A stretch of DNA of 64,000 bases from the NCBI RefSeq assembly GCF_000279145.1, contig NC_018178.1, positions 2,685,800-2,749,799 on the forward strand, written 5' to 3'. The stretch's first letter is position 1. Every line of letters starts with the position of its first letter. A program made the position numbers and the translations under genes. Positions 8,108-59,994 of the stretch are shown here, piece after piece. The DNA is from Melioribacter roseus P3M-2 (lineage in GTDB: Bacteria > Bacteroidota > Ignavibacteria > Ignavibacteriales > Melioribacteraceae). A model generated the notes under the pieces. That model was not told where the DNA came from, did no database searches, and saw only the letters and a list, made by a program, of their open reading frames with translations.

Positions 8108-8581
8108 ATGGACATTAACTTAGTAAAAAAGCTGATTAAAATAGTTGAGCAGAGCGATATATCGAAAATTTCGATTCAGGAGGGAGATGTAAAAATAAAA
8201 ATATCGAAAAATTCGGATTCGCAGGCTCAAGTTGCATTTACGCAAAGCGCTCCGGCTCCCGTTCCGGCTCAAACGCCGACGGAACCGGCAATCGAAAAAC
8301 AAACCGAAAAACAAACCGAAAAAGAGACTCCTAAGTCTAATCTGCACGAAATAAGGTCGCCTATTGTGGGCACGTTTTACAGAGCTCCCGCTCCTGATGC
8401 AGACCCGTATGTTAAAGTCGGCGACGAAGTAAGTCCCGGCACCGTTCTGTGTATTGTAGAAGCGATGAAGTTGATGAACGAAATCGAAAGCGACGTAAGC
8501 GGTAAAATCGTTAAGATTCTCGTTGAAAATGCAACCCCGGTTGAGTACAATCAGCCGCTCTTTTTAATCGAAACTTCGTAA
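8108..8581 (+). CDS. accB: Biotin carboxyl carrier protein of acetyl-CoA carboxylase
   Basis: Carries the biotin that shuttles CO2 between AccC and the carboxyltransferase in the first step of fatty-acid synthesis. The biotinylation motif is EAMKLMNE with K121. The C-terminal 80 residues form the biotinyl domain ([20 protein letters not shown]), preceded by a flexible Ala/Pro-rich linker and a [10 protein letters not shown] charged repeat. An N-terminal helical segment serves assembly. The gene sits between efp and accC with 11-13 bp gaps. Confidence 0.97.
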
Positions 8582-28199: not shown

Positions 28200-28898
28200 A
28201 TGAACGAAAAAATATTACTTGTCGACGACGAAAAGGACATAATAGAATTTCTTAAGTACAATCTCGAAAATGAAGGCTTCGAAGTTATCGCCGCTTTTAA
28301 CGGTCAGGAAGCGATCGAAAAGCTCGAGAATAATCCTGACCTGATCATCCTCGACGTTATGATGCCCAAAATGGACGGCTACGAAACGTGCAAACAGATA
28401 AGAAAGAGGGAAGAGTTTAAGAACACGCCGGTAATTTTTCTAACGGCAAAGTCATCCGAAATCGACGAAGTATACGGTTTGAATATCGGAGCGGACGATT
28501 TTATTCAGAAACCGATATCGCCCAAGAAACTGATAGCGCGCGTCAAATCGAATCTTCGTAAAGTCGAACAATTGAAACAGAGCGAAGAAGAAGTTAAAGA
28601 AATAAATGCCGGGCCACTCTTGATTAACAGAACAAAATACACGGTGACGGTGGATAAAAGGGAGGTGGTTTTCCCGAAAAAGGAATTCGAGATACTTGCA
28701 TATCTTGCTTCAAAACCAGGCAAAGTCTTCGAAAGAGAAAGAATTCTGCGCGATATATGGGGCGGCGACGTTTATGTGGTTGAAAGAACAATCGACGTTC
28801 ACGTCAGAAAAATCAGAGAAAAGCTGGGCGAATACTCGTATCTGATCGAAACTATCAAGGGGGTGGGCTATCGTTTCAAGGACATTGAAAAATATTGA
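28200..28898 (+). CDS. OmpR/PhoB-family response regulator
   Basis: 232 residues: receiver domain with acidic pair LLVDDEKD, phospho-acceptor Asp in IILDVMMPKMDG, the conserved Thr in FLTAKS and Lys in FIQKPIS, then a winged-helix DNA-binding domain (RTIDVHVRKIREKLG and IETIKGVGYRF). Overlapped by the histidine kinase gene, with which it pairs. PhoB/PhoR-like overall; signal unknown, and no phosphate genes are nearby. Confidence 0.93.
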   Translation: MNEKILLVDDEKDIIEFLKYNLENEGFEVIAAFNGQEAIEKLENNPDLIILDVMMPKMDGYETCKQIRKREEFKNTPVIFLTAKSSEIDEVYGLNIGADDFIQKPISPKKLIARVKSNLRKVEQLKQSEEEVKEINAGPLLINRTKYTVTVDKREVVFPKKEFEILAYLASKPGKVFERERILRDIWGGDVYVVERTIDVHVRKIREKLGEYSYLIETIKGVGYRFKDIEKY

Positions 28899-29919
28899 TG
28901 AAAATCTGCGCTTCGGAAGGAATTACGCGCTGCCGCTCTTCATCTACAATTCCGCTTTTTTTTTGCTGTTGTATCTGATTGCCGGTCACTCCCCGGAAAT
29001 TCTCTTTACAATTTTTTTGTTCATTCTGATTACATATTTCGGATTGTTGAATTACCTCGGGCTGAAAAGGAAAAAAGAAGTCAATTCTATTACCGAAACT
29101 ATTCGTAAAATCAGAAACAATCAACTGGTGGATCATTACGACATTCAACTGAGCGGCGGATTGCGAATACTCGAAGAAGAAATCCGCGAGATGTATCGCC
29201 GCAACAAGGAAGTAATCGAAAATCTGAAGAAAATGGAAAAGGTCAGGACGGAATTTTTGGGCAACGTTTCGCACGAATTGAGAACGCCCATATTTGCAAT
29301 CCAGGGATTTATAGAGACGCTACTCGACGGCGCCGTTAACGACCCGAATGTAAATATTGCATTCCTTCAAAAAGCAAATCAGCATTTGAATAATTTGAAT
29401 AATCTGTTAAACGATTTGATCGATATCTCGATGATTGAATCCGGACAGATGAAAATGAATCTCCGTTATTTCGACTTGGAACCGATTCTCCGGAATTTAA
29501 TTACGGAATTTAAGCCGTATGCGGAAAACAAGAATTTGAATCTGGAAATTAAACTGAGCAAGCCGGCTCCTGAAGTGTACGGCGACAAGGAAAAAATTCG
29601 GCAAGTGTTATCGAACCTAATCGTCAATGCAATAAAATATACCGAACAGGGTAAAGTAGAGGTGGGATTACAGGATTACGAAAAAGAGGCTCGAATTTAT
29701 GTGCGGGATACGGGTATCGGTATAAGTCCCGAAGACCAGCGCCGTATATTCGAGCGGTTTTACAGAGTTGATAAAAACCGTTCAAGGGAATTGGGCGGCA
29801 CCGGGCTCGGATTGGCAATTGTAAAACATATAATTGAAGCGCATAATTCGAGAATGGAACTTATCAGTAAGCCGGGCGAGGGGAGCGAATTTGCATTCAG
29901 ATTGAAGAAATTTAAATAA
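28885..29919 (+). CDS. Sensor histidine kinase (PhoR-like)
   Basis: 344 residues with two N-terminal membrane helices (about residues 15-50), a coiled linker, the H-box NVSHELRTPIFAIQGF with the phospho-histidine, N-box NLIVNAIKYTEQG, G1 DTGIGIS and G2 GGTGLGLAIVKHII. The start is uncertain: TTG 28885 lies within the regulator's last codons with AAGGA only two bases upstream, and ATT or CTG codons follow. It is the last gene before the AT-rich island. Confidence 0.92.
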   Translation: MKNIDENLRFGRNYALPLFIYNSAFFLLLYLIAGHSPEILFTIFLFILITYFGLLNYLGLKRKKEVNSITETIRKIRNNQLVDHYDIQLSGGLRILEEEIREMYRRNKEVIENLKKMEKVRTEFLGNVSHELRTPIFAIQGFIETLLDGAVNDPNVNIAFLQKANQHLNNLNNLLNDLIDISMIESGQMKMNLRYFDLEPILRNLITEFKPYAENKNLNLEIKLSKPAPEVYGDKEKIRQVLSNLIVNAIKYTEQGKVEVGLQDYEKEARIYVRDTGIGISPEDQRRIFERFYRVDKNRSRELGGTGLGLAIVKHIIEAHNSRMELISKPGEGSEFAFRLKKFK

Positions 29920-29929
29920 TTATTATAAT

Positions 29930-31117
29930 TTATAATTTATTAAAATATATTATACTGGTTCTAAAAGCAGTTAACTCAACCCCTTCTACTTTTAATACCA
30001 TTTCGAAATGTTTTAAACTATCAACATTAGTAACCGTTGATACTTTTCTAATTTTTTGTTCAATATTTTTATCTAAAGCCGTTCTAATTGATTCCATAAT
30101 GCCAACTTCGCTAAAACCAGAAAGTATTAAAATACTATTATTCTTATAACTTTGAATTTTTAATATAAGTCCAAAATCATTTTGGTATCTGCCTGCCTGC
30201 CAAGATAGACTATAGGTGTTCTTAATTTTTTCGTTCCCATCGACTATACTTATTGTATATGGGGATATATGATAGCGTACATTTGTTCTCATCAGTAATG
30301 TATCAATCTTGTACAAGTTTTTTACAGTACCAATAAAAATAATATTCCCATTTTCAAAATCTTTCCATTGTAATTCCGATGCCAATTTAATAAATATTTT
30401 TTGGGGGTGTAATGTATTTATTATCTCATATAAACCATATACGGAGCTGGGTCTTAGATAAGTAATATTTGCCTTGTCATATTTATCAGTAAAATGTGGA
30501 TCTTCTGTAGCATATTTTTCGTAGTCTTTATCGCTGTTTATGTATGGTATTCTAATAAAAATTCTATCTAAACTATTTTTATCAGTTAATATATAATAGT
30601 CGCCAAGAACTATAGTCAATCTATTTTGATTGTTTAAGAAATCATCCCAGATGAAATTTCTATAATTACTTTTAGGAACCGTACTAAAATGTGATATAAG
30701 AAAATATAATAAAGCACTAGCTATAACTATAATCAGGATAGCAGAATAAGTTCTACGATTAACTTTGAAAGAAGAAGTAGCTGATTTATTAGGTAAATAT
30801 TCAATTCGATAATGTCCCTTAGGTATTTCAATTCGATAGTTGAATTTTTCTCCATTCGTTAAAAAAAAATGTTCCAATTTTTTTCTAAGATTGCTAATGT
30901 AAGAACGAACTTGAGGGTCGCTTGAAGGATCAAAATTAGAGTCTTTTCCAAAAACATCGATAGCTATATCAATTTCCTTAACTGAATCGCATTCTTCAGA
31001 CTTTTTAGCTAAATAACTTAATAATTCCTGATAACGTGAAGAGTCTTTAAATTCATCACTTTCCAATATCTTGGATAAAATTTCATTCTTCTCTTTGTCG
31101 CTAATGCTATTAGGCAT
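29930..31117 (-). CDS. Membrane-anchored one-component transcription regulator (CadC-like layout)
   Basis: 395 residues. The N-terminal 100 residues match the OmpR-type winged-helix variant found on large sensors of Acidobacteria and Bacteroidota: SRYQELLSYL, then VKEIDIAIDVFGKDSNFDP, SSDPQVRSYISNLRKKLEHFF and IPKGHYRIEY. One membrane helix follows (about residues 122-142, YSAILIIVIASALLYFLI), then a roughly 250-residue extracytoplasmic domain of no recognised family, presumably the ligand sensor. ATG 31117 is chosen because AAGGTGG stands 5 bases upstream. It is divergent from the lyase genes and is the obvious candidate to control them; that control is inference. Confidence 0.75.
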   Translation of the reverse strand: MPNSISDKEKNEILSKILESDEFKDSSRYQELLSYLAKKSEECDSVKEIDIAIDVFGKDSNFDPSSDPQVRSYISNLRKKLEHFFLTNGEKFNYRIEIPKGHYRIEYLPNKSATSSFKVNRRTYSAILIIVIASALLYFLISHFSTVPKSNYRNFIWDDFLNNQNRLTIVLGDYYILTDKNSLDRIFIRIPYINSDKDYEKYATEDPHFTDKYDKANITYLRPSSVYGLYEIINTLHPQKIFIKLASELQWKDFENGNIIFIGTVKNLYKIDTLLMRTNVRYHISPYTISIVDGNEKIKNTYSLSWQAGRYQNDFGLILKIQSYKNNSILILSGFSEVGIMESIRTALDKNIEQKIRKVSTVTNVDSLKHFEMVLKVEGVELTAFRTSIIYFNKL

Positions 31118-31139
31118 TGTATCCACCTTGTTAAGTTAT

Positions 31140-31181
31140 GTAATATACTGATTTTTGCCCGTAATTTACTGTAAAATACTT
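31140..31181. promoter_or_regulatory. Three phased GTAAWWTAC boxes, candidate operator of the divergent regulator
   Basis: GTAATATACT (31140-31149), GTAATTTACT (31161-31170) and GTAAAATACT (31171-31180). The spacings are 21 and 10 bp, whole helical turns, and the last two are tandem direct repeats. OmpR-type winged helices bind head-to-tail to repeats about 10 bp apart. The boxes lie 23 bp before the regulator start codon and about 100 bp before the first lyase start codon, suiting autoregulation plus activation. Confidence 0.5.
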
Positions 31182-31278
31182 GAGTTGCCATATCCATTTT
31201 ATTAAATATGCACCAGTTATAGGCGAAAATGTATAAACTATTTGTACTGTCATGGGCGTAAATAAAAATCATATTAAA

Positions 31279-32459
31279 ATGAATAAATCTAAATTTAACT
31301 ATTTAATGAGAGTTGTTATTTTTATAACAGTTGGAATTTCCCCCTCAAGTTTATATTCCAACTCACTGTATTTATTTCTGCAAGAAAAAAATATTGAAAT
31401 AAGTAATCCTGTAAAACAAAAAATCCTCGATAAAGCTGAATTACTACTCTTTACTAAAATAGCGACTGTGACTGATAAAAATCAAGTGCCTCCCAGCGGT
31501 GATAAACATGATTACATGAGTATGGCTCCATATTGGTGGCCCAACCCTAATTCAAAAGACGGATTGCCATATATAAGAAAAGACGGTTTAAGAAATCCGG
31601 AAATTAAAAAAATACCCGACAGAGATAATATGCGGGCCATGATTGACGCTGTTGAAACTCAATCCTTAGCTTATAGAATTACGCGAGAGAATAAATATTC
31701 GAAAAAGGCAATAGAGTTCTTAAAAGCATGGTTTATTGACGAACAAACTAAGATGAATCCAAACTTAAATTTTGCTCAATTTATTCCTGGCGTAAATACT
31801 GGTCGTGGAATAGGAATAATCGAAGCATCTTCAATTTATAAAATTATTGATGCAATTGGGATTTTGAAAATGTCAGAAGATTGGGATCCACATTTTGAAT
31901 ACAAAATAAGAAAATGGTTTGAAGATTATTTCATCTGGCTGACTACAAGTAAAAATGGTATTGATGAATCGAACGAAAAAATAATCATGGTTCATGGTAT
32001 GATGTGCAGGCTGCCTCAATTTCATTGTTTCTCGGGAAAACTGATTATGCTAAAAAAATTATTGAAAAGGTCAAAACAAAAAGAATTGATTTGCAAATAC
32101 AACAAGATGGGAAACAGCCTTTTGAAATTGTGAGGACACGTTCATGGCATTATAGTGTATTTAACTTGCATGCACTTTTTCTATTAGCAGTTTTAGGTGA
32201 ACGTGTTGGTATTGATTTATGGAATTATCCTGATAAAAAGAATTCTGCATTAAGAAAAGCGCTGGATTATTTGCTGCCTTACTGCATTGAACCTGATAAA
32301 TGGAAGTATAAGCAAATCGAAAAAATTAGTTCGGAAGAAATTTATCCCCTGGTTTTAATTGCAAGAAAAAAATATGACAAAAATGCTTACGACAAGTGGC
32401 TGAAAAAATTATCAAATGATGAAAACCAACAGAAAATCGAAAATTTAATTTATGAATAA
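31279..32459 (+). pseudogene. Polysaccharide lyase of the alginate-lyase fold (PF05426-type), frameshifted at an A6 run
   Basis: Secreted or periplasmic lyase that would cleave uronate-containing polymers by beta-elimination. Signal peptide within residues 1-30 (MRVVIFITVGISPSSLYS), then PYWWPNPNSKDGLPYIRKDG and GVNTGRGIGIIEASSIYKII. Frame 0 runs to 32133 but loses homology after ESNEK at position 31980; the -1 frame continues NNHGSWYDVQAASISLFLG, matching NNHGTCWVMQAAVYAKLVG in the next gene. One added A in the run 31976-31981 gives 393 residues, exactly the length of the neighbour. The catalytic Asn-His pair falls at the break. Called pseudogene for caution; sequencing error or slippage is equally open. 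Confidence 0.8.
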
Positions 32460-33633
32460 CAGAACAATTTTTTTAATTGCTTTTATCTATTGCCTGTTTG
32501 CAGCATATTATATGTTCGCTAAGGATAAAATAATATCAGAAATAATAGCAATAGAAAAGCAAAGAATTATACCAATAGCAGAAAGATATTTATTAGAAAT
32601 ACCAATAACTATAACTGCATTTCATTGTGAGCGTAGCGCCGGGGGGACGCACGATTTTTACTCTGAGGGCGATTATTGGTGGCCTGATCCGGATAATCCT
32701 GATGCTCCATATATTCAACGAGATGGAATGACAAATCCTCAGAATATTACAGCGCATCGAAAAGTATTAATTCGATTCAGCCTTCATGTAGCCACATTAA
32801 CGTCTGCATATAAATTAACTAATGATATTAAGTATGCGCAAAAAGCAATTGAACACTTGTTAGCATGGTTTGTAAATCCAGATACAAAAATGAATCCTAA
32901 TTTGCTTTATGCACAAGCAATAAAGGGCAGAGTTACGGGAAGAGGAATTGGGATTATTGATACTATTCATTTAATCGAAATTTCTCAATCAATAATGATA
33001 TTGGAAAAGGCAGGGATATTAAAAGGGAATGACTTGAATGCAATTAAAAAATGGTTTCGAGATTATCTTGAATGGCTAACAACTCATCAATATGGTATCG
33101 ATGAAATGAATGCAAAAAATAATCATGGGACATGCTGGGTAATGCAGGCAGCAGTGTATGCAAAGTTGGTGGGGGACAGCAGTAAAATAGAATTCTGCAG
33201 AAAAAGATTTAAGGAAGTATTGCTGCCGAACCAAATGGATAAAGATGGGAGCTTTCCTTTGGAGTTGGCTAGAACTAAACCGTATAATTATTCCTTATTT
33301 AACCTTGATGCAATGACAACAATATGTCAAATTCTTTCAACGAATCAAGATAATCTTTGGAATTTTACATTACCGGATGGAAGAGGAATAAAAAAGGCAA
33401 TTGATTTTATGTATCCGTACATATTGGACAAATCAAAGTGGCCATATCGGCATGATGTAATGTATTTTGATGAATATCCGGTAAGACAGCCGTCGTTATT
33501 ATTTGGCGGATTAGCTTACAATGAATATAAATATATCGATTTGTGGAAAACGCTGAAAGCTGATCCATCTAATGAAGAAGTTATTAGGAATTTACCAATT
33601 CGACATCCAATATTATGGATTAATACAGATTGA
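32452..33633 (+). CDS. Polysaccharide lyase of the alginate-lyase fold (PF05426-type)
   Basis: 393 residues, paralogue of the preceding gene and complete. N-terminal hydrophobic segment (IFLIAFIYCLFAAYYMFA) is a signal peptide or anchor. Conserved features: RSAGGTHDFYSEGDYWWPDP, PYIQRDGMTNP, GRGIGIIDTIHLIEI, KNNHGTCWVMQAA and YNYSLFNLDAM. PF05426 covers PL5 alginate lyases and PL38 glucuronan lyases; the exact family and substrate cannot be fixed by eye. It overlaps the preceding gene by 8 bp and leads into the GH88 gene, so released unsaturated oligosaccharides are passed on to GH88. Confidence 0.88.
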   Translation: MNNRTIFLIAFIYCLFAAYYMFAKDKIISEIIAIEKQRIIPIAERYLLEIPITITAFHCERSAGGTHDFYSEGDYWWPDPDNPDAPYIQRDGMTNPQNITAHRKVLIRFSLHVATLTSAYKLTNDIKYAQKAIEHLLAWFVNPDTKMNPNLLYAQAIKGRVTGRGIGIIDTIHLIEISQSIMILEKAGILKGNDLNAIKKWFRDYLEWLTTHQYGIDEMNAKNNHGTCWVMQAAVYAKLVGDSSKIEFCRKRFKEVLLPNQMDKDGSFPLELARTKPYNYSLFNLDAMTTICQILSTNQDNLWNFTLPDGRGIKKAIDFMYPYILDKSKWPYRHDVMYFDEYPVRQPSLLFGGLAYNEYKYIDLWKTLKADPSNEEVIRNLPIRHPILWINTD

Positions 33634-33653
33634 TAATAAAATCAGAGAACTAT

Positions 33654-34850
33654 ATGAAAAAACTAATCATGTTAATTATAGCGCTGTTAATTACACTATC
33701 AAGTAGAATTTATTCTCAGAGTATTATTGATATAGTTGGTGAACAACTAATTAAAAAAGACAAAATATTTGACGGACGCTTTCCTTTATATACAGAAAAT
33801 GGGAAGTGGAAACTAAGTGATAAACCAAATTGGTTCGCTGGTTTTACAGCCGGAGAATTATGGTATATGTATGACATGACAGGCAATGAAGAATATAAAG
33901 TAAGAGCGCTGAGGCATTCAGATATTTTAATTAAATATGCAACGTTAGACAATACGCACGATTTGGGATTCATATTTTATAATTCCTGCGTAAAGGCATA
34001 TCAACATACGGGAGAAATAAAATACCGCGATGCAGCTATAAAAGCTGCTTATATGCTTGCAAAGAGATTGAATGAAAAAGGAAATTTCATAAGAGCATGG
34101 GGGAGATTAGGAACGGACGACCGCGAAGGTCTTATGATTATTGACACAATGATGAACTTAGAGCTTTTATTCTGGGCGGCAAAGGAAACCGGAGATTATA
34201 CTCTCTACGATATCGCCTATAAGCACGCAATTACCTGCATGAATGAAAATGTAAGAAAAGATTATTCTTCTTATCACGTAATAGAATTTAATCCCAAGAC
34301 AGGAGAAGTAATAAAGAAAAGAACGCACCAGGGTTTTGGTGATGAAACTACTTGGGCACGGGGACAAGCATGGGGAATATATGGATTCGCAATAGCTTAT
34401 AAGTACACTCAAGACGAAAGATTTCTGAATATTTCAAAGAAAATGGCAGATTATTTTATTTCTAAGTTGCCAGCTGATAATGTTCCTTACTGGGATTTAA
34501 GCTTGACTGATTCTGACGCTCTAAAGGATGCCTCGGCAGGCGCAATTGCAGCCTCTGGAATGTTTCTTATTTCAGAATTAACAAGTCTAAAATCTGATTA
34601 CAAGAAATATTTAAGCGAAGCGCTGCAAATAATTAAATCATTGAAAGACAGTTACTTATTTACAAAAAGCATACGCGCTGCAGAAGAAGGTATATTAATT
34701 CATACGGTTTATCATTTCCACAATAAATGGGGTGTTGATGAATCTTATCCGGCCGGTGATTTTTATTTTATTGAATGCTTGAAAAAAGAATATGATTACA
34801 ACAAAGCAGAATATTTTATAGAAAAAACAGACCAAAGAAAAAATATTTAA
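33654..34850 (+). CDS. GH88 unsaturated glucuronyl hydrolase, possibly the N-terminal half of a GH88-GH2 fusion
   Basis: Removes the 4,5-unsaturated uronate that lyases leave on the non-reducing end. 398 residues with a signal peptide (MKKLIMLIIALLITLSSRIYS). Catalytic Asp candidates are D103 in NTHDLGFIFYNS and D164 in GLMIIDTMMN; HQGFGDETTWARGQAWGIYG is the family signature. ATG 33654 is preferred to 33630 because it begins the signal peptide. The domain is complete by GDFYFIECLKKEY. One extra A in the run 34838-34843 would join it without a stop to the downstream GH2, which lacks a start codon and signal peptide of its own. Confidence 0.9.
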   Translation: MKKLIMLIIALLITLSSRIYSQSIIDIVGEQLIKKDKIFDGRFPLYTENGKWKLSDKPNWFAGFTAGELWYMYDMTGNEEYKVRALRHSDILIKYATLDNTHDLGFIFYNSCVKAYQHTGEIKYRDAAIKAAYMLAKRLNEKGNFIRAWGRLGTDDREGLMIIDTMMNLELLFWAAKETGDYTLYDIAYKHAITCMNENVRKDYSSYHVIEFNPKTGEVIKKRTHQGFGDETTWARGQAWGIYGFAIAYKYTQDERFLNISKKMADYFISKLPADNVPYWDLSLTDSDALKDASAGAIAASGMFLISELTSLKSDYKKYLSEALQIIKSLKDSYLFTKSIRAAEEGILIHTVYHFHNKWGVDESYPAGDFYFIECLKKEYDYNKAEYFIEKTDQRKNI

Positions 34851-37183
34851 TAAACAACAATTGGTTCTTCCTTTGTGAGGATATAGAAGATAAAAATAAT
34901 CTGTATCAACATACGGCTATATGGGAAAAAATAAATTTACCGCATACGTGGAACAAGACAGATGTATTAGACCAGGTTCCCGGTTATAGAAGAGGAATAG
35001 GCTGGTATGAAAAGGAAATATTTATTCCGGAAGTTAGTGTTGATATGGACTATGTTCTTCATTTTGAAGGAGTCAACATAAAATCTGAAGTTTATGTTAA
35101 TGGGGAAAAAGCAGGCGGTCACATTGGCGGGTATGTAGGTTTCGATGTCGATATAACTCCGTTTGTTTATAAAGGCAAAAATAATTTAATCCAGGTGAAA
35201 GCCGATAATTCCTATGACCCTTATGTAGTGCCTTCACAAAAATCTGATTTTGCTATTTATGGAGGTATAACTCGTAACGTATGGCTGAATGTTTTACCCA
35301 AAACTCATTTTGTTGGAATGCTAATTCAAACCCCGGAGGTAAGTAAAGAAACTGCAAGAACAAGTGTTCGACTTAAAATCAAAAATGAGAATGCAATTGA
35401 AAATTTTAAAATCAATCTTGTTATAAAAGATGCAAATGGTAAACCAGTAGTAGAAAAGAACAGTAAAGAAAAATTAGACTTTGGTGAAAATTCAATTCAA
35501 TTAGATTTACCTGTAATTAAAAATCCAAATCTATGGTCTCCATCTGCGCCATACTTGTATACCATTGAAGCAAATTTAGTATACGATGAGAAAGTAATCG
35601 ACAAAATAAAAGAAAGAATAGGTTACCGCTGGTATGAGTTCAAAGAACATGATGGATTTTATCTTAATGGTGAAAGATTATTATTAAGAGGTACGCACCG
35701 GCATGAGGATTTAGCAGGTTATGGTAATGCTATACCTGATAGTTTGCATCGTAAAGATATAGAAATGATTAAATCAATGGGGGCAAATTTTATAAGATTA
35801 GCACATTACCCCCAAGCGCCTGAAATATACAGAGCTTGTGATGAATTGGGCTTACTTGTTTGGGATGAAAATCCATGGTGCAGAGGCGGTGTTGGTCCGA
35901 AAGAATGGAAAGAAAATACAAAAAGAATCTTTCAAGAAATGATACTTCAGAATTACAATCATCCATCAATAATTTTATGGTCAATAGGCAATGAAAGCGA
36001 TTGGATGCCTGATTTCCCGGGTGGAGATAACCCAGATTCCTTAAAGGCATTTGCAAAAGAGTTGCATCAGTTAGCAAAAAAATTAGATCCTTATCGTTAT
36101 ACCGTTACAAGAAAATTTCCTGCCGCTCAAGATGTTGTAGATGTCTTCTCCCCCTCAATTTGGTCAGGATGGTATTCTGATGTTTATAAAAATTATGAGA
36201 AAACAATTACAAAAGCCCGTGATACTTATAAAAGATTATTCCACGCTGAATATGGTGGCGATAGTCATGCAGGAAGACATACAGAAAACCCAATCAATGG
36301 AGATGGTAAAATAATTTTAGAAGGAGGCGATGAACCAATTAATAAAATACAATTGAATAGTATTGCAAATATTGGTGATTGGAGTGAAAGTTATATAGTT
36401 GATTTATTTGATTGGTATTTGCATGTAACAGAAAATTTAGACTGGTTCAGCGGCTCGGCTCAATGGATATTTAGAGATTTTGTCACTCCGTTACGCCCAG
36501 AAAATCCTATACCATATGTTAATCAAAAAGGACTCGTTGACAGAAGCAACAAACCCAAAGATGCTTATTATGTATTCAAAAGTTACTGGACTAATGAGCC
36601 GAAATTTTGTTACATCGAATCTCATACATGGACTGAAAGGATCGGCAAGGAGAATGAGCTGAAAGAAGTAAATGTTTTTAGTAATTGTGACGAAGTAGAA
36701 TTGGTTGTCAATGGAGTGAGTTATGGTAAATTGAAAAAGGATATAAATAAATACCCGGCATGCGGCTTAAGCTGGAATGTAAAATTTCAAGTAGGGAAAA
36801 ATATAATTGAAGCAATAGGTTATAATGTAACTGAAAAAGTTGCTTATGATAGTATGACGATCAATTACACAACGCAGAAAAATGGAAGACCTGATGAAAT
36901 TATTCTTAAAAAAGAAAGATTAAAAAACGGCAACTACTTAATAACAGCATATGCTGTTGACAAAAATGGCAAGCGTTGTATCGATTACGAAGAAAGAGTT
37001 TACTTTGCGGCGTTGAGCGGTGGAAAATTAATAGACAATCTTGGCACCCCCAATGGCAGCTGCGTAATAGAGATGGCAAACGGTAAGGCATTAATTGAAT
37101 TCAAACATATTCCGTTGCAAAAGGGTATTGTAGAAGTTCGCAACCAGGATTTTAAGGGTACGTTCATAACTATCGAAGATTAA
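34850..37183 (+). CDS. Glycoside hydrolase family 2, no standard start codon in frame
   Basis: GH2 enzyme (beta-galactosidase/beta-glucuronidase/beta-mannosidase superfamily). The family N-terminus begins around 34844 (INNNWFFL, then KINLPHTWNKTDVLD), followed by the jelly-roll (GYRRGIGWYEKEIFI), an Ig-like domain, the TIM barrel with LRGTHRHEDLAG and DENPWCRGG, the acid/base Glu in LWSIGNESDW and the nucleophile Glu in HAEYGGDSHAG, and C-terminal beta domains. The frame is open back to 34796 but has no ATG, GTG or TTG before ATG 35045, which would delete about 65 conserved residues. The start I give (ATA 34850) is only a marker. Substrate could be a glucuronide or galacturonide, judging by neighbours. 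Confidence 0.85.
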   Translation: MNNNWFFLCEDIEDKNNLYQHTAIWEKINLPHTWNKTDVLDQVPGYRRGIGWYEKEIFIPEVSVDMDYVLHFEGVNIKSEVYVNGEKAGGHIGGYVGFDVDITPFVYKGKNNLIQVKADNSYDPYVVPSQKSDFAIYGGITRNVWLNVLPKTHFVGMLIQTPEVSKETARTSVRLKIKNENAIENFKINLVIKDANGKPVVEKNSKEKLDFGENSIQLDLPVIKNPNLWSPSAPYLYTIEANLVYDEKVIDKIKERIGYRWYEFKEHDGFYLNGERLLLRGTHRHEDLAGYGNAIPDSLHRKDIEMIKSMGANFIRLAHYPQAPEIYRACDELGLLVWDENPWCRGGVGPKEWKENTKRIFQEMILQNYNHPSIILWSIGNESDWMPDFPGGDNPDSLKAFAKELHQLAKKLDPYRYTVTRKFPAAQDVVDVFSPSIWSGWYSDVYKNYEKTITKARDTYKRLFHAEYGGDSHAGRHTENPINGDGKIILEGGDEPINKIQLNSIANIGDWSESYIVDLFDWYLHVTENLDWFSGSAQWIFRDFVTPLRPENPIPYVNQKGLVDRSNKPKDAYYVFKSYWTNEPKFCYIESHTWTERIGKENELKEVNVFSNCDEVELVVNGVSYGKLKKDINKYPACGLSWNVKFQVGKNIIEAIGYNVTEKVAYDSMTINYTTQKNGRPDEIILKKERLKNGNYLITAYAVDKNGKRCIDYEERVYFAALSGGKLIDNLGTPNGSCVIEMANGKALIEFKHIPLQKGIVEVRNQDFKGTFITIED

Positions 37184-37219: not shown

Positions 37220-39838
37220 ATGAAAAATGAAAAAGTACTATTCTTTTTATCGCTATTGTATTGCTTCCTATTTATTAATTATGAAAGCTATGGGCAATTA
37301 AAAGGAACAGTACAAGGAAAGGTTAGTTCTGAAGGGGAGGCTCTTCCTTACGCTAATGTCATAATACTTGGAACAAGCTATGGCGCTTCAACCGATGCCG
37401 AAGGCTATTATAAAATTAGCGGCATCCCGGTTGGCACATATAAAATACAAGCCAGGTATATAGGTTTTGAGGCAAAAGAAGTTACGGTCGAAATAAAGGC
37501 AAACAAAATTACTGAGATTAATTTTTCTCTTGTTCCTACTGTTCTGGAAGGTATGGAAGTTATAACTATAACTGGGCAGGCAAAAGGACAGGTAGAAGCG
37601 ATAAATCAACAACTTAATTCGAACACGATTGTTAATGTTGTGTCAAAAACGAAAATAGAAGAGCTTCCTGATGCAAACGCGGCAGAATCTGTCGGACGTC
37701 TGCCTGGAGTTTCGATTATTCGAAGCGGAGGCGAAGGAAATATGGTATCTATTAGAGGGTTGGAACCAAAATTTAATCTTATTACTGTAAACGGCGTAAG
37801 AATACCTTCCACAGAAAACGAAAATAGAAGCGTTGACCTCAGTATGTTCTCAGTAAATATGCTTGATGGAATTGAGTTAACAAAGGCAATAACGCCCGAT
37901 AGAGACGCGGACGCAGTAGGGGGGATTATTGATTTTAAGGTTAACAGGGTGCAGCAAGGGCTTGATAGAAAAATACAAGTTCAACAAGGCTATAATGGAC
38001 ATTCAAAAACTTTTTATCCTTTTAAAATTAATGGCGCCATAAGTAATCGTTACTTCGATAATTCGGTGGGAGCTTACCTTTATTTAAATTACGAACAGGT
38101 GGATAGAAGCGCTCATCAATTTACAGGAAATTATGATGTGCAAGGAACTCCGCTTCCGGGAGAGGAATTTGTGAAAAACCTTACGGTTACGAATTTTTCA
38201 TTAAGGGATGTGCGGTCTAAAGTTAAGCGCGTTGGGGCGACTCTAAACTTAGACTATTTACTCAGTAACGGTTCTATTATGTTAATGAATATTTTTAGTT
38301 ATCTAAATAACGATAAAATTACTTATTATGATGGCTATAATGTGTCTAATGTAAATCATACTTATCGACTTATGCATGATAATTATGATTTGAGTTTACT
38401 TACCAATTCTTTTGTCTTTGATTATGATTTACAATGGATAAAGTCGGAGGTGAAATTATCCCATTCTGTATCTCAAAGAGATAATCCCACCGACTATTAT
38501 GTAGAATTTCAAGAAAATTCGGCTTTTAGCGGGGACTGGGCTGAGCACATATATGATGGGCCGGCTATTTTGCAAAGATATGCTAGAAATAATTTGACTG
38601 AAACAGGCCTGAATACTTTGGTTAAGCAACCTTCAGAAAATTTGGAGAGAAATATCACTGGAGAAATTAATTTAACGTTGCCTTTTAACTTGGGAGACGC
38701 GATTTATGGCAAAGTTAAAACCGGCTCGAAATTTAGATACACAAATAAAAACGCAAATAGCAACTATTACAGATCTAACCCTGGCATTGCGGATTCATAT
38801 GACCCTACAAAAGGTATTGCAGGTGTGATTAATGCTTATCCTGATCGTACTTTTCCAATGACCTCCAACGGATTAATACAAATGCGTCCGTTTTGGGATT
38901 CAACTTTTAGTATAAGCTCTTTTATGAATAACAAGTATAATTTCGGCTACGCATTAAATAAAGATATTATTGAAGAATTATATAGAAGAGTTTCTAATAA
39001 TAGTTACTATTATTCACCGCGTGGCGATATTAATGACAATACAGTATATGAAAGGATATACGCTGGATATTTAATGTCCGTGATTAATCTAGGCTCAAAT
39101 ATTATGATACTTCCTGGCGTACGCTATGAGAAAGAGCTAAGTCATTATAAAGGGGCTTACGTAATTTATGAAGATACTGGATTAAGAGCCAATGAGAGTT
39201 CGAGGCGAGATTCACTACAAATTCGCAAGAATGAAAATTGGTTCCCGATGTTGCATCTAAGATTTAAAGCTAGCTCGTGGTTTGATGTTCGATTGGCTTT
39301 TACTAAAACTATTATCAGACCCGATTATCAATATCTCGTTCCAAAATATTTTGAAAATTCATTAGGGTTAAGCGTTATAAGAGGAAACCCTCAATTAAAA
39401 CCGGCAATTGCCCGTAATCTTGACTTAAGCCTTGCGTTCCATTCTAATGTTATAGGACTCTTCACTGTCTCGGCTTTTTACAAAGAAATAGAAAATATGT
39501 TCTATACAATATCGAGGCCGATAATTTCCAAAGATGACGCTCTTAATTTAGGCTTAACGTCTGATAAAAACGGTTTTACGTTGACTGATCCTATCAATAA
39601 TACTTCCAAAGCTTTCATAAGAGGTATTGAATTTGATTTGCAAACAAGACTTTGGTATCTCCCGGGATTATTAAATGGTATTGTCTTAAGTCTAAATTAC
39701 ACTACAATGAATTCAATAACTTACTATCCAAGAACACTACTGCTCCAGGAAAGACTAACTACGCCGCCTTGGTTTAGGATTACAAGAATTGATACAAGTC
39801 GTAAAGGGAGGATGCTTGACCAACCTAATGATGTTTGA
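37220..39838 (+). pseudogene. TonB-dependent outer-membrane receptor, C-terminus cut off by an IS element
   Basis: Receptor that would import oligouronides. Signal peptide, then a carboxypeptidase-regulatory-like domain (GTVQGKVSSEGEALPYANVI, residues about 30-110), plug domain (IEELPDANAAESVGRLPGVS, then SIRGLEPKFNLITVNGVRI) and most of the beta-barrel. It is of the TonB-dep_Rec type with the N-terminal extension, not a classical SusC, and no SusD lies next to it. The TGA stop at 39836-39838 is the terminal TGA of the inserted element. Removing the element and one GTT copy restores DQPNDV-LNLSLGYDYKN in frame and a 970-residue receptor. The truncated form lacks the last 98 residues, including the final strand needed for outer-membrane insertion. 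Confidence 0.9.
39833..39835. repeat. Target-site duplication, left copy (GTT)
   Basis: GTT directly before the left end of the IS3-family element, matching GTT directly after its right end. Three-base duplications are typical of this family. Confidence 0.8.
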
Positions 39839-39865
39839 TCTTTCCCCCAAAAAGTATACAATAAG

Positions 39866-40738
39866 TTAAGCAACTCTTTCTTTAATTTCTTCCTTATTTT
39901 TTTCTTCGAATTCAACCGGAGATAAATAACCCAAAGCTGAATGTAATCTCTGCCTGTTGTAAAATATTTCAATGTATCTAAATATACTTTGCCTGGCTTC
40001 GTCACGCGTTTCATATTTCTCAAAATTCACCAATTCGGTTTTCAATGTATGAAAAAACGATTCCGTAATTGCATTGTCATAACAATTGCCGCTCGAACTC
40101 ATCGATTGTTTCATCTGATAGCTTTTCAATTGTTCTCTGAATGATTTGCTCGTATACTGACTGCCTCTGTCACTGTGAAAAATTAACCCCGCCGGTGGAT
40201 TTCTATGAATTACGGCAATCCTTAAAGCTCTATTTATTATTTCAGCGCTCAATCTCTGACTTACCGACCATCCCACTATCTTTCTTGAGTAAATATCCAT
40301 TATCACTGCCAAATACAACCAGCCTTCTGATGTCCACAAATATGTTATATCGCTCGTCCAGACCTTATCTTTCTCTTCCGAACGAAAATTGCCTTTTACC
40401 AAATTTTCGCTCACCTCCGCTTTTCGATTCTGACGCGTCGTTGATTTGTATCTCTTCTTCATCTTGGCTCGTATATTGTGTAGCCTCATCAACCTTGCCA
40501 CTTTCTTCCTGTTTACAATTATTCCATTCCTTCTGATCGACGCCGTTATCCTTGGCGATCCATACCTGCCATCGCTTCTATTGTAATGAAATCTTATTAT
40601 CTCTAATAATTTCCGATCTTCTATCTCTCTACTACTTAATTTCCTTTTTAGCCAATTATAATACCCGGAGCGGCTGACCCGTAATACCCGGCACATTAAC
40701 TCTAAAGGATAATTCCTTCGGTTCTCTTTTATGAACAT
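39866..40738 (-). CDS. IS3-family transposase OrfB (DDE integrase core)
   Basis: 290 residues. N-terminal LMCRVLRVSRSGYYNW region, then rve/DDE core: first Asp in WTSDITYLWTSEGWLYLAV, second in LIFHSDRGSQYTS, and Glu in NAITESFFHTLKTELV. All catalytic residues are intact, so the element should be active. It is expressed as an OrfAB fusion through -1 frameshifting from orfA. The frame could also be opened at ATG 40738. Confidence 0.95.
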   Translation of the reverse strand: MFIKENRRNYPLELMCRVLRVSRSGYYNWLKRKLSSREIEDRKLLEIIRFHYNRSDGRYGSPRITASIRRNGIIVNRKKVARLMRLHNIRAKMKKRYKSTTRQNRKAEVSENLVKGNFRSEEKDKVWTSDITYLWTSEGWLYLAVIMDIYSRKIVGWSVSQRLSAEIINRALRIAVIHRNPPAGLIFHSDRGSQYTSKSFREQLKSYQMKQSMSSSGNCYDNAITESFFHTLKTELVNFEKYETRDEARQSIFRYIEIFYNRQRLHSALGYLSPVEFEEKNKEEIKERVA

Positions 40739-40743
40739 ATATT

Positions 40744-41040
40744 TTACTCCGTATCCTTTGAAAAAAAAGATATGGCTTTTTTTAATATGTCTCTTTCCAT
40801 TTTTACTCGCTTGAGCTCCCTCTCAAGTCGTCTTATTTCTTCATCTTCCGGTTTTAATTTCCCTTTTCCCGGAAATGCATTATTCTTGTCTTCGAGATAT
40901 TTCTTCTTCCATTTATGAATCGAGTTCTCGCTTATGCCCAAGTCTCTGGATACTTCTGCCACCGACATTCCTTCTTCGGTTACCATTTTGACTGCCGATA
41001 GCTTAAACTCTTTGTCGTAGGTTCTTCTTGTTTGTCCCAT
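40744..41040 (-). CDS. IS3-family transposase OrfA (helix-turn-helix)
   Basis: 98 residues: DNA-binding HTH (RTYDKEFKLSAVKMVTEEGM, then SVAEVSRDLGISENSIHKWK) and a C-terminal leucine-zipper-like helix (EDEEIRRLERELKRVKMERD). Frameshift sites to orfB are present near its end: an in-phase A_AAA_AAA (T7 on the plus strand, 40777-40783) and a T8 run (A8 on the plus strand, 40761-40768). Either would produce the OrfAB transposase by -1 slippage. Confidence 0.93.
   Translation of the reverse strand: MGQTRRTYDKEFKLSAVKMVTEEGMSVAEVSRDLGISENSIHKWKKKYLEDKNNAFPGKGKLKPEDEEIRRLERELKRVKMERDILKKAISFFSKDTE
40761..40783 (-). promoter_or_regulatory. Programmed -1 frameshift region of the IS3 element
   Basis: On the minus strand orfA reads TTA-AAA-AAA-GCC and then TCT-TTT-TTT-TCA. 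Both contain an in-phase X_XXX_XXX heptamer. A -1 slip at either enters the orfB frame and reads on through its ATG into MFIKENRRNYP. Which of the two is used is not decidable by eye. Confidence 0.65.
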
Positions 41041-41116
41041 CTTAGTGTTCTCCTATATTTGTTTTAATTTAAATATAGTTGCTTTTCTGTCTGTCTACAA
41101 GATGGGGGCAAGATCA

Positions 41117-41119
41117 GTT
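41117..41119. repeat. Target-site duplication, right copy (GTT)
   Basis: GTT immediately after the right inverted repeat, identical to the three bases before the left one. Confidence 0.8.
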
Positions 41120-41416
41120 TTAAATTTATCATTAGGATACGATTACAAGAATTTTTCCGGAAGGATATCGCTCTTATATCAAGGGAATACATTGAGTAGA
41201 ATTGGCTCTAGACCGGAATTAGACGGTTTTACTAAAGATCTGCTACGTTTCGATCTCTCGCTCAAACAAAATTTAAACGAACACATTCAGTTATTCTTTA
41301 ATCTAAATAACTTCACAAACTCGGCGGATGTGTCTACCGAACCCGTTAAGGGCTTTGAAACATCTGCATCTTATTATGACTGGACGGCGGATTTAGGTGT
41401 TAGATACACCTTTTAA
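41120..41416 (+). pseudogene. Severed C-terminal part of the TonB-dependent receptor
   Basis: The last 98 codons of the receptor interrupted by the IS element: LNLSLGYDYKNFSGRISLLY, then LKQNLNEHIQLFFNLNNFTN, ending in a classic outer-membrane C-terminal strand WTADLGVRYTF with terminal Phe. An open frame from inside the IS right end (41045) runs into it, but that product would lack plug and most of the barrel. It is followed 24 bp later by the first T9SS cargo gene. Confidence 0.92.
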
Positions 41417-59160: not shown

Positions 59161-59994
59161 ATGGAAGTACGTTACTCCCCCGATAAAAACGGTTTTAAGA
59201 AAATGACAACCGACGAACTTCGTCAGTCGTTTTTGATCGAAAGCCTTTTTGTCAAAAACGAAGTCCCGATGGTCTATTCCGACATCGACAGGTCGATTAC
59301 AGGCTCTGCGGTGCCTGCAGGAAAAGAACTTACGTTGACCGCGTCAAAAAAAGAAATGGCGGCTGAGTTCTTTTGCGAAAGGAGGGAAGTAGGAGTATTG
59401 AATATCGGCAACAAAGGAAAGATTATCCTCGACGGCGCAGAATACACGATGAATTTCAGAGACGCGCTTTATATTGGCAGAGGCACAAAAGAAGTGAAAT
59501 TTTTGAGCGACGACCCCGACAAACCCGCCGAGTTCTATTTTGTCAGTTATCCGGCGCATAAAGAATATCCTTCGAAGCATATCAAATACGAAGACGCAAT
59601 CCACAGGAATTTGGGCTCGATGGAATCGTCGAACAAGAGAACTATTCATCAATATATATTGCCGGAAATTTTGCCTACATGCCAGCTTGCAATGGGATTG
59701 ACCGAATTGGAAGAAGGATGCGTATGGAACACAATGCCGGCTCATACGCATCAGAGACGTTCCGAAGTGTATATGTATTTTAACTTGAGCGAAGACGATT
59801 TTGTTGTACATTTAATCGGCGATCCGAAAGAAACACGGCACTTGATAATACGAGACCGTCAGGCTGTCTTGTCGACCAGCTGGTCGCTCCACTCGGGCTG
59901 CGGAACCAGGAGTTATTCATTTATCTGGGCTATGGGCGGAGAAAATCAAGCCTTCGACGACATGGATCACATTCCAATGAAAGAATTAAGATAA
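59161..59994 (+). CDS. kduI: 5-dehydro-4-deoxy-D-glucuronate isomerase
   Basis: Isomerises the ring-opened unsaturated uronate (DKI) to 2,5-diketo-3-deoxygluconate. 277 residues from ATG 59161 (MEVRYSPDKN), which follows GAGGT and gives the family length; an in-frame TTG at 59137 is less likely. Metal ligands H195, H197 and E202 lie in PAHTHQRRSEVYMYF. It accepts the product released by GH88 after the lyases of the island. Followed by kduD after 24 bp. Confidence 0.97.
   Translation: MEVRYSPDKNGFKKMTTDELRQSFLIESLFVKNEVPMVYSDIDRSITGSAVPAGKELTLTASKKEMAAEFFCERREVGVLNIGNKGKIILDGAEYTMNFRDALYIGRGTKEVKFLSDDPDKPAEFYFVSYPAHKEYPSKHIKYEDAIHRNLGSMESSNKRTIHQYILPEILPTCQLAMGLTELEEGCVWNTMPAHTHQRRSEVYMYFNLSEDDFVVHLIGDPKETRHLIIRDRQAVLSTSWSLHSGCGTRSYSFIWAMGGENQAFDDMDHIPMKELR

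Follow-up and report, generated by a model that had tools for sequence, protein, structure and literature searches.

Parts of one published account (PMC3878776) name three regulator types for the polysaccharide loci of Bacteroides, and in the main text of a 2024 review on the regulation of hemicellulases (PMC10766802) the words OmpR, ToxR, winged helix and membrane-bound are absent. Among open-licence papers, we recognised no description of the family of the regulator considered here, which is encoded in a 64 kb stretch of the Melioribacter roseus genome (the whole DNA analysed, hereafter the window). By domain order this protein fits the ToxR/CadC group, with which it shares an N-terminal OmpR-type winged helix, one transmembrane helix, a C-terminal domain predicted to lie outside the membrane, and the absence of a phosphorylation domain. 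It differs from ToxR and CadC in its C-terminal fold, which resembles BcsB and the N-terminal domain of GH67 enzymes, and in its predicted targets, which are polysaccharide operons. For CadC, PMC5430869 places Cad1, at -153 to -113, and Cad2 upstream of the core promoter, with the consensus sites arranged head-to-head, whereas the array described below consists of four in-phase units abutting the -35 position.

The response regulators of the OmpR/PhoB type share with this protein the DNA-binding fold and, if binding proceeds as predicted, the use of tandem repeats at 10-11 bp, which is the spacing of the array. The position of the site against the -35 is PhoB-like as well. Unlike these response regulators, however, the protein has neither a receiver domain nor a partner kinase, is anchored in the membrane, and carries its DNA-binding domain at the N-terminus. 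The latter feature also sets it apart from SusR-like regulators, whose DNA-binding domain is C-terminal; the 10-11 bp between units is a further difference from that group. Hybrid two-component systems and ECF sigma/anti-sigma pairs are comparable in that they control polysaccharide loci linked to TonB receptors in Bacteroidota, but searches against domain families found no kinase, receiver, AraC-type or sigma-70 region 2 or 4 domain in the regulator. The hallmarks of response regulators, of hybrid two-component systems and of ECF pairs are thus missing; the original prediction had set the locus apart from the latter two.

The regulator gene (29930..31117, minus strand, ATG at 31117) encodes 395 amino acids in an intact reading frame and is the only copy in the genome, a single contig of 3,300,414 bases. 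Its AlphaFold2 model (mean pLDDT 88.6) shows a winged helix (residues 7-109), then a long helix (121-144) and, from approximately residue 150 to 395, an alpha/beta domain. The winged helix (30791..31099, minus strand) has the fold of OmpR/PhoB effector domains: a VIA-align comparison with the PhoB effector domain bound to DNA (1gxp) gave Z 6.7 at 3.6 Å over 86 aligned residues, followed by RpaA (9dvt, Z 6.6) and SaeR (4u88, Z 6.3). In sequence the relationship is fainter, Trans_reg_C scoring 17 bits against a Pfam cut-off of 26.2; the same family was matched at E ≤ 0.1 by 26 of the 38 members of the regulator family. Apart from it, Pfam gave only a weak FtsH_ext match. The single transmembrane helix, 121-144, was assigned from the model and a hydrophobic stretch of sequence rather than by a dedicated transmembrane predictor. 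The PhoB-type fold and this helix bear out the earlier description of the protein as a membrane-anchored one-component regulator of the OmpR type.

Because the DNA-binding domain is N-terminal, the C-terminal domain (29933..30670, minus strand) is predicted to be oriented outwards, and we take it as a periplasmic sensor. Modelled alone, it reached a pLDDT of 91.6 and a pTM of 0.89. Its nearest solved folds are the N-terminal domains of GH67 alpha-glucuronidase (1mqr, Z 10.3, 2.8 Å, 121 aligned residues) and BcsB, a periplasmic subunit of cellulose synthase (9fmt, Z 12.6, 2.9 Å, 160 aligned residues); beneath the carbohydrate-enzyme rows of the fold list, Z is about 5. Such a modelled likeness to BcsB and GH67 does not in itself establish sugar binding. 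Foldseek alone returned no match to the regulator models at E ≤ 0.001. When the PDB was searched by sequence, the regulator gave weak matches only, those listed being all calmodulins, and the family profile gave a helicase at E 0.56 and no BcsB or GH67 sequence match. No Pfam or NCBIfam family covers the regulator, and NCBIfam gave isolated weak matches among the 38 members.

The repeats lie where they had been reported, between this regulator and the divergent lyase genes, the first of which begins at 31279 on the plus strand. In the whole window, exact GTAAWWTACT occurs as three boxes only: GTAATATACT at 31140-31149, GTAATTTACT at 31161-31170 and GTAAAATACT at 31171-31180, spaced by 21 and 10 bp. 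The positions, spacing and clustering of the three nearly identical 10-mers of the original prediction were therefore confirmed, but the array, when read alongside that of the relatives, comprises four units rather than three. These are phased 9-mers on the plus strand: unit 4, GTAATATAC, which is distal to the promoter (31140..31148) and where a chain model trained without the window also places a unit; the degenerate unit 3, GATTTTTGC (31150..31158), placed by models trained without the window; unit 2, GTAATTTAC (31161..31169); and the promoter-proximal unit 1, GTAAAATAC (31171..31179), which anchors the spacing test described below. Their starts at 0, 10, 21 and 31 form a ladder of 10, 11 and 10 bp. 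In the orientation of the regulator the same positions read GTATTTTAC, GTAAATTAC, GCAAAAATC and GTATATTAC, and the degenerate unit occupies the slot that in orthologues holds GCAATnnAC (reverse strand).

The 10-mer by itself is ordinary: the 3.30 Mb genome contains 39 perfect copies of it and 55 of the reversed control, and a search for two adjacent units with up to three mismatches returned the array and three further rows, one of them the other strand of the array, as against three for the reversed control. The cluster is another matter. A motif-independent search, which required three 10-mers inside 41 bp, no more than four pairwise mismatches in total and all four letters in the unit, found two clusters in the window and none in any of 20 dinucleotide shuffles. 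One is the array; the other is a triple at 8290-8323, AATCGAAAAA / AACCGAAAAA / AACCGAAAAA, spaced 12 bp. The three-box cluster is real and beyond chance. Against this, a different motif-free test, for phased 9-mers, failed to pick out the boxes of the window from the 200 bp upstream (p 0.30), and a promoter scan of the intergenic region between regulator and lyase gave one site, fewer than in shuffles.

The regulator has a patchy distribution: sampling 395 genomes of the phylum turned up homologues in 14, and sampling 391 of the class turned them up in 23, the own genome being included in both counts. A contig scan with the single regulator protein found nothing; a scan of named genomes with an alignment of eight members found 22 loci, including some in candidate division KSB1, Neomarinimicrobiota, Calditrichia and marine Gammaproteobacteria (Catenovulum, Paraglaciecola). 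The distant members in marine Gammaproteobacteria are L107, L108, L109, L110, L112 and L113, from Catenovulum, Paraglaciecola, Cellvibrionaceae and Porticoccaceae, which suggests transfer between phyla. For comparison we used 40 homologous loci with their flanks, mostly from Ignavibacteria. In a FastTree phylogeny of the 41 proteins the regulator of the window falls with an orthologue-like clade A (L052-L059) with a local support of 0.97, and is 39-43% identical to the members of that clade compared, which did not include L052.

The boxes had been expected to be conserved upstream of orthologous loci, and arrays do recur there, as well as at paralogous regulators. Read by eye, most clade A orthologues carry GTAAAAGGC, GTnAAnTTC, GCAATnCAC and GTnnATTGC at 0, 10, 21 and 32. 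Trained without the tested clade and scored on chains of three units at 9-12 bp, the unit model detected an array in 19 of the 39 upstream regions, that of the window included, at p ≤ 0.05 (approximately two expected; Fisher 1e-17) and in 10 of the 39 at p ≤ 0.01. For the window itself p was 0.010, a score that none of the 13 upstream regions used as controls reached. At several loci, e.g. L053, L058-L060, L083 and L090, this held-out model was not significant. An EM motif derived from seven orthologues without the window had its best upstream match on the array, with p 0.004 at width 30 (three widths were used). In a rerun over the 250 bp upstream region of the window the best match fell on the array at all seven widths and was significant at three of these (p 0.039, 0.008 and 0.0055; 0.37-0.60 at the others), since the window does not have the GCAAT..ATTGC palindrome of the orthologues. 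In L053-L058 of clade A the promoter-distal half of the array is the palindrome GCAATnnACnnGTnnATTGC, which is absent from the window.

The motif-free phase test across the 39 loci was weak (Fisher 0.001), and an ungapped comparison of the upstream region of the window with those of the loci gave AT-rich noise and nothing significant. The full 41-base array pattern, on the other hand, occurs exactly once in six of the eight clade A genomes and is absent from two, with no match for the reversed controls. Five of the six sites plainly adjoin the regulator. In the remaining genome (G497) the site is found on a different contig, where the locus ends 52 bases past it, as an assembly break would give. 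A shorter pattern revealed an array beside the regulator in G627 too. Elsewhere in the window, including towards the uronate operon (47078 onward), the orthologue model gave scattered matches (e.g. at 59928 and 46297), which we take for chance. The letters drift between clades; conservation extends to the ladder itself, to its location between regulator and divergent operon, and to how far it stands from a -10-like element. The phased direct repeats of the original prediction are supported. As the units are near-palindromic, direct and inverted readings are hard to separate in some clades.

A regular promoter geometry accompanies the array. Array ends were fixed by hand in 27 of the 41 loci, the other 14 being left out for want of a clear end. 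In the direction of the divergent operon, TAnnnT begins precisely 23 bp beyond the array in 17 of the 27 and 24 bp beyond it in 5, the background rate being 3.6% per position. Clades A and B, whose array ends follow the motif, have it at +23 in 8 of 12 loci. Because the array ends had been set by hand, the test was repeated blind, leaving out one clade at a time. TAnnnT was found at +23, or at +33 where the model had placed the array one unit early, in 13 of 27 loci (P 4e-8), and at the predicted distance in 5 of 13 loci that had not been used before (P 0.0014). TTG directly follows the array in 10 of 27 loci, and the -35 is poor in most. In the window, a -35-like TTGAGT (31180..31185, plus strand) comes directly after unit 1, and the slot of the relatives' -10-like element, at +23 from unit 1, is filled by TAAATA (31203..31208, plus strand), which misses the TAnnnT rule by one base, the last. 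An array that abuts the -35 is placed as one would expect for a class II activator, as with PhoB.

Gene order recurs as well. In 39 of the 40 loci that have a nearest upstream gene, that of the window included, this gene is divergent; the exception, L060, has a short ORF followed by a divergent gene resembling a TonB receptor. TonB Plug is matched by 17 and CarboxypepD_reg by 21 of the 39 divergent neighbours, and sulfatases and GH2 enzymes occur twice each. Relatives of the uronate, lyase or GH88 genes of the window were found in six of the eight clade A loci compared with 4 of the 32 others. The lyase/GH88/GH2 set is seen again at L076, L080 and L082, beside regulators of clade F; L076 and L082 lie on one contig approximately 14 kb apart, so that two regulators of the family flank a single copy of that locus.

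The divergent operon of the window begins with a PF05426 lyase gene (31279..32459, plus strand) that is frameshifted near 31975: one homologue aligns to it in two frames, which meet at 31971-31980. Either genuine decay or an error in sequencing could account for the frameshift. It is followed on the same strand by a second, intact PF05426 lyase (32452..33633; solved relatives 3nfv and 8bdq), a GH88-family protein (33630..34850), a GH2-family protein (35045..37183, with homology beginning earlier, at approximately 34760) and a TonB-dependent receptor (37220..41416). The receptor is split by a transposase gene on the minus strand (39866-40738), presumably of the IS3 type from its sequence, residues 11-880 of a homologue aligning at 37238-39844 and residues 874-972 at 41108-41404. 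As the lyase is frameshifted and the receptor split, the switch may control a decaying locus in this genome.

From these results, a mechanism may be proposed. The boxes are probably the operator of the adjacent membrane-anchored regulator, which would act as a class II activator of the divergent polysaccharide-utilisation operon. Its N-terminal winged helices would bind the four 9-bp units, which at 10-11 bp apart share one face of the DNA. Where the array stops, the -35 of the divergent operon would start, and from there the regulator could contact RNA polymerase. A sugar or oligosaccharide is likely to be sensed by the C-terminal domain, on the outer side of the membrane. Autoregulation is likely too, given that a mere 22 bp separate the start codon of the regulator from the array upstream of it.

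That short distance, together with the approximately 46-170 bp within which the array lies from the regulator start in clade C relatives, would also suit an operator for repression, on which the regulator would sit and keep the divergent promoter, or its own gene, silent until a ligand arrives. We consider this unlikely: the fixed 23 bp to the -10-like element and the mostly poor -35 resemble an activator-dependent promoter, and one would more commonly expect a repressor to overlie the -10 or the start site. The boxes might instead be targets of the PhoB/PhoR-like two-component pair encoded next to the regulator gene in the window (28200-29919), and OmpR-family proteins do bind direct repeats. 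The array, however, recurs with the membrane regulator instead, and in the stretches retrieved for the other 40 loci no close homologues of the pair were found, with three partial response-regulator matches and no kinase match at 1e-10, so that ownership by this pair is hardly credible. Scarcely more probable is that the repeats are a functionless chance similarity in AT-rich DNA, or the leftover of a decaying locus, to which the phase test, the damaged lyase and receptor genes and the off-consensus element at +23 could all be attributed; yet 20 shuffles of the 64 kb gave no such cluster, the held-out models fall on the array, and the frame of the regulator is intact. Activation by the adjacent regulator is the best reading.

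In two sister genomes (L076, L080) the lyase/GH88/GH2 set of the window would be run by regulators of another clade of the family with differently spelt arrays, and regulator and operator may form a cassette exchangeable between loci. Whether such cassettes form a further, unnamed class of polysaccharide-locus switch, in which a one-protein transmembrane activator with a BcsB/GH67-like sensor is paired with a four-unit operator 23 bp from the -10 of a divergent TonB-receptor operon, is to us an evenly balanced question. The fixed promoter geometry makes promoters, regulators and likely target operons predictable from sequence, and the array and its regulator could serve as a compact part for building glycan biosensors. 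If the proposed class is true, it would be a fourth kind of regulator beside SusR, hybrid two-component and ECF systems, one in which a single protein would read the outside signal and contact the promoter directly, and it would explain how polysaccharide loci are controlled in Ignavibacteria and their relatives.
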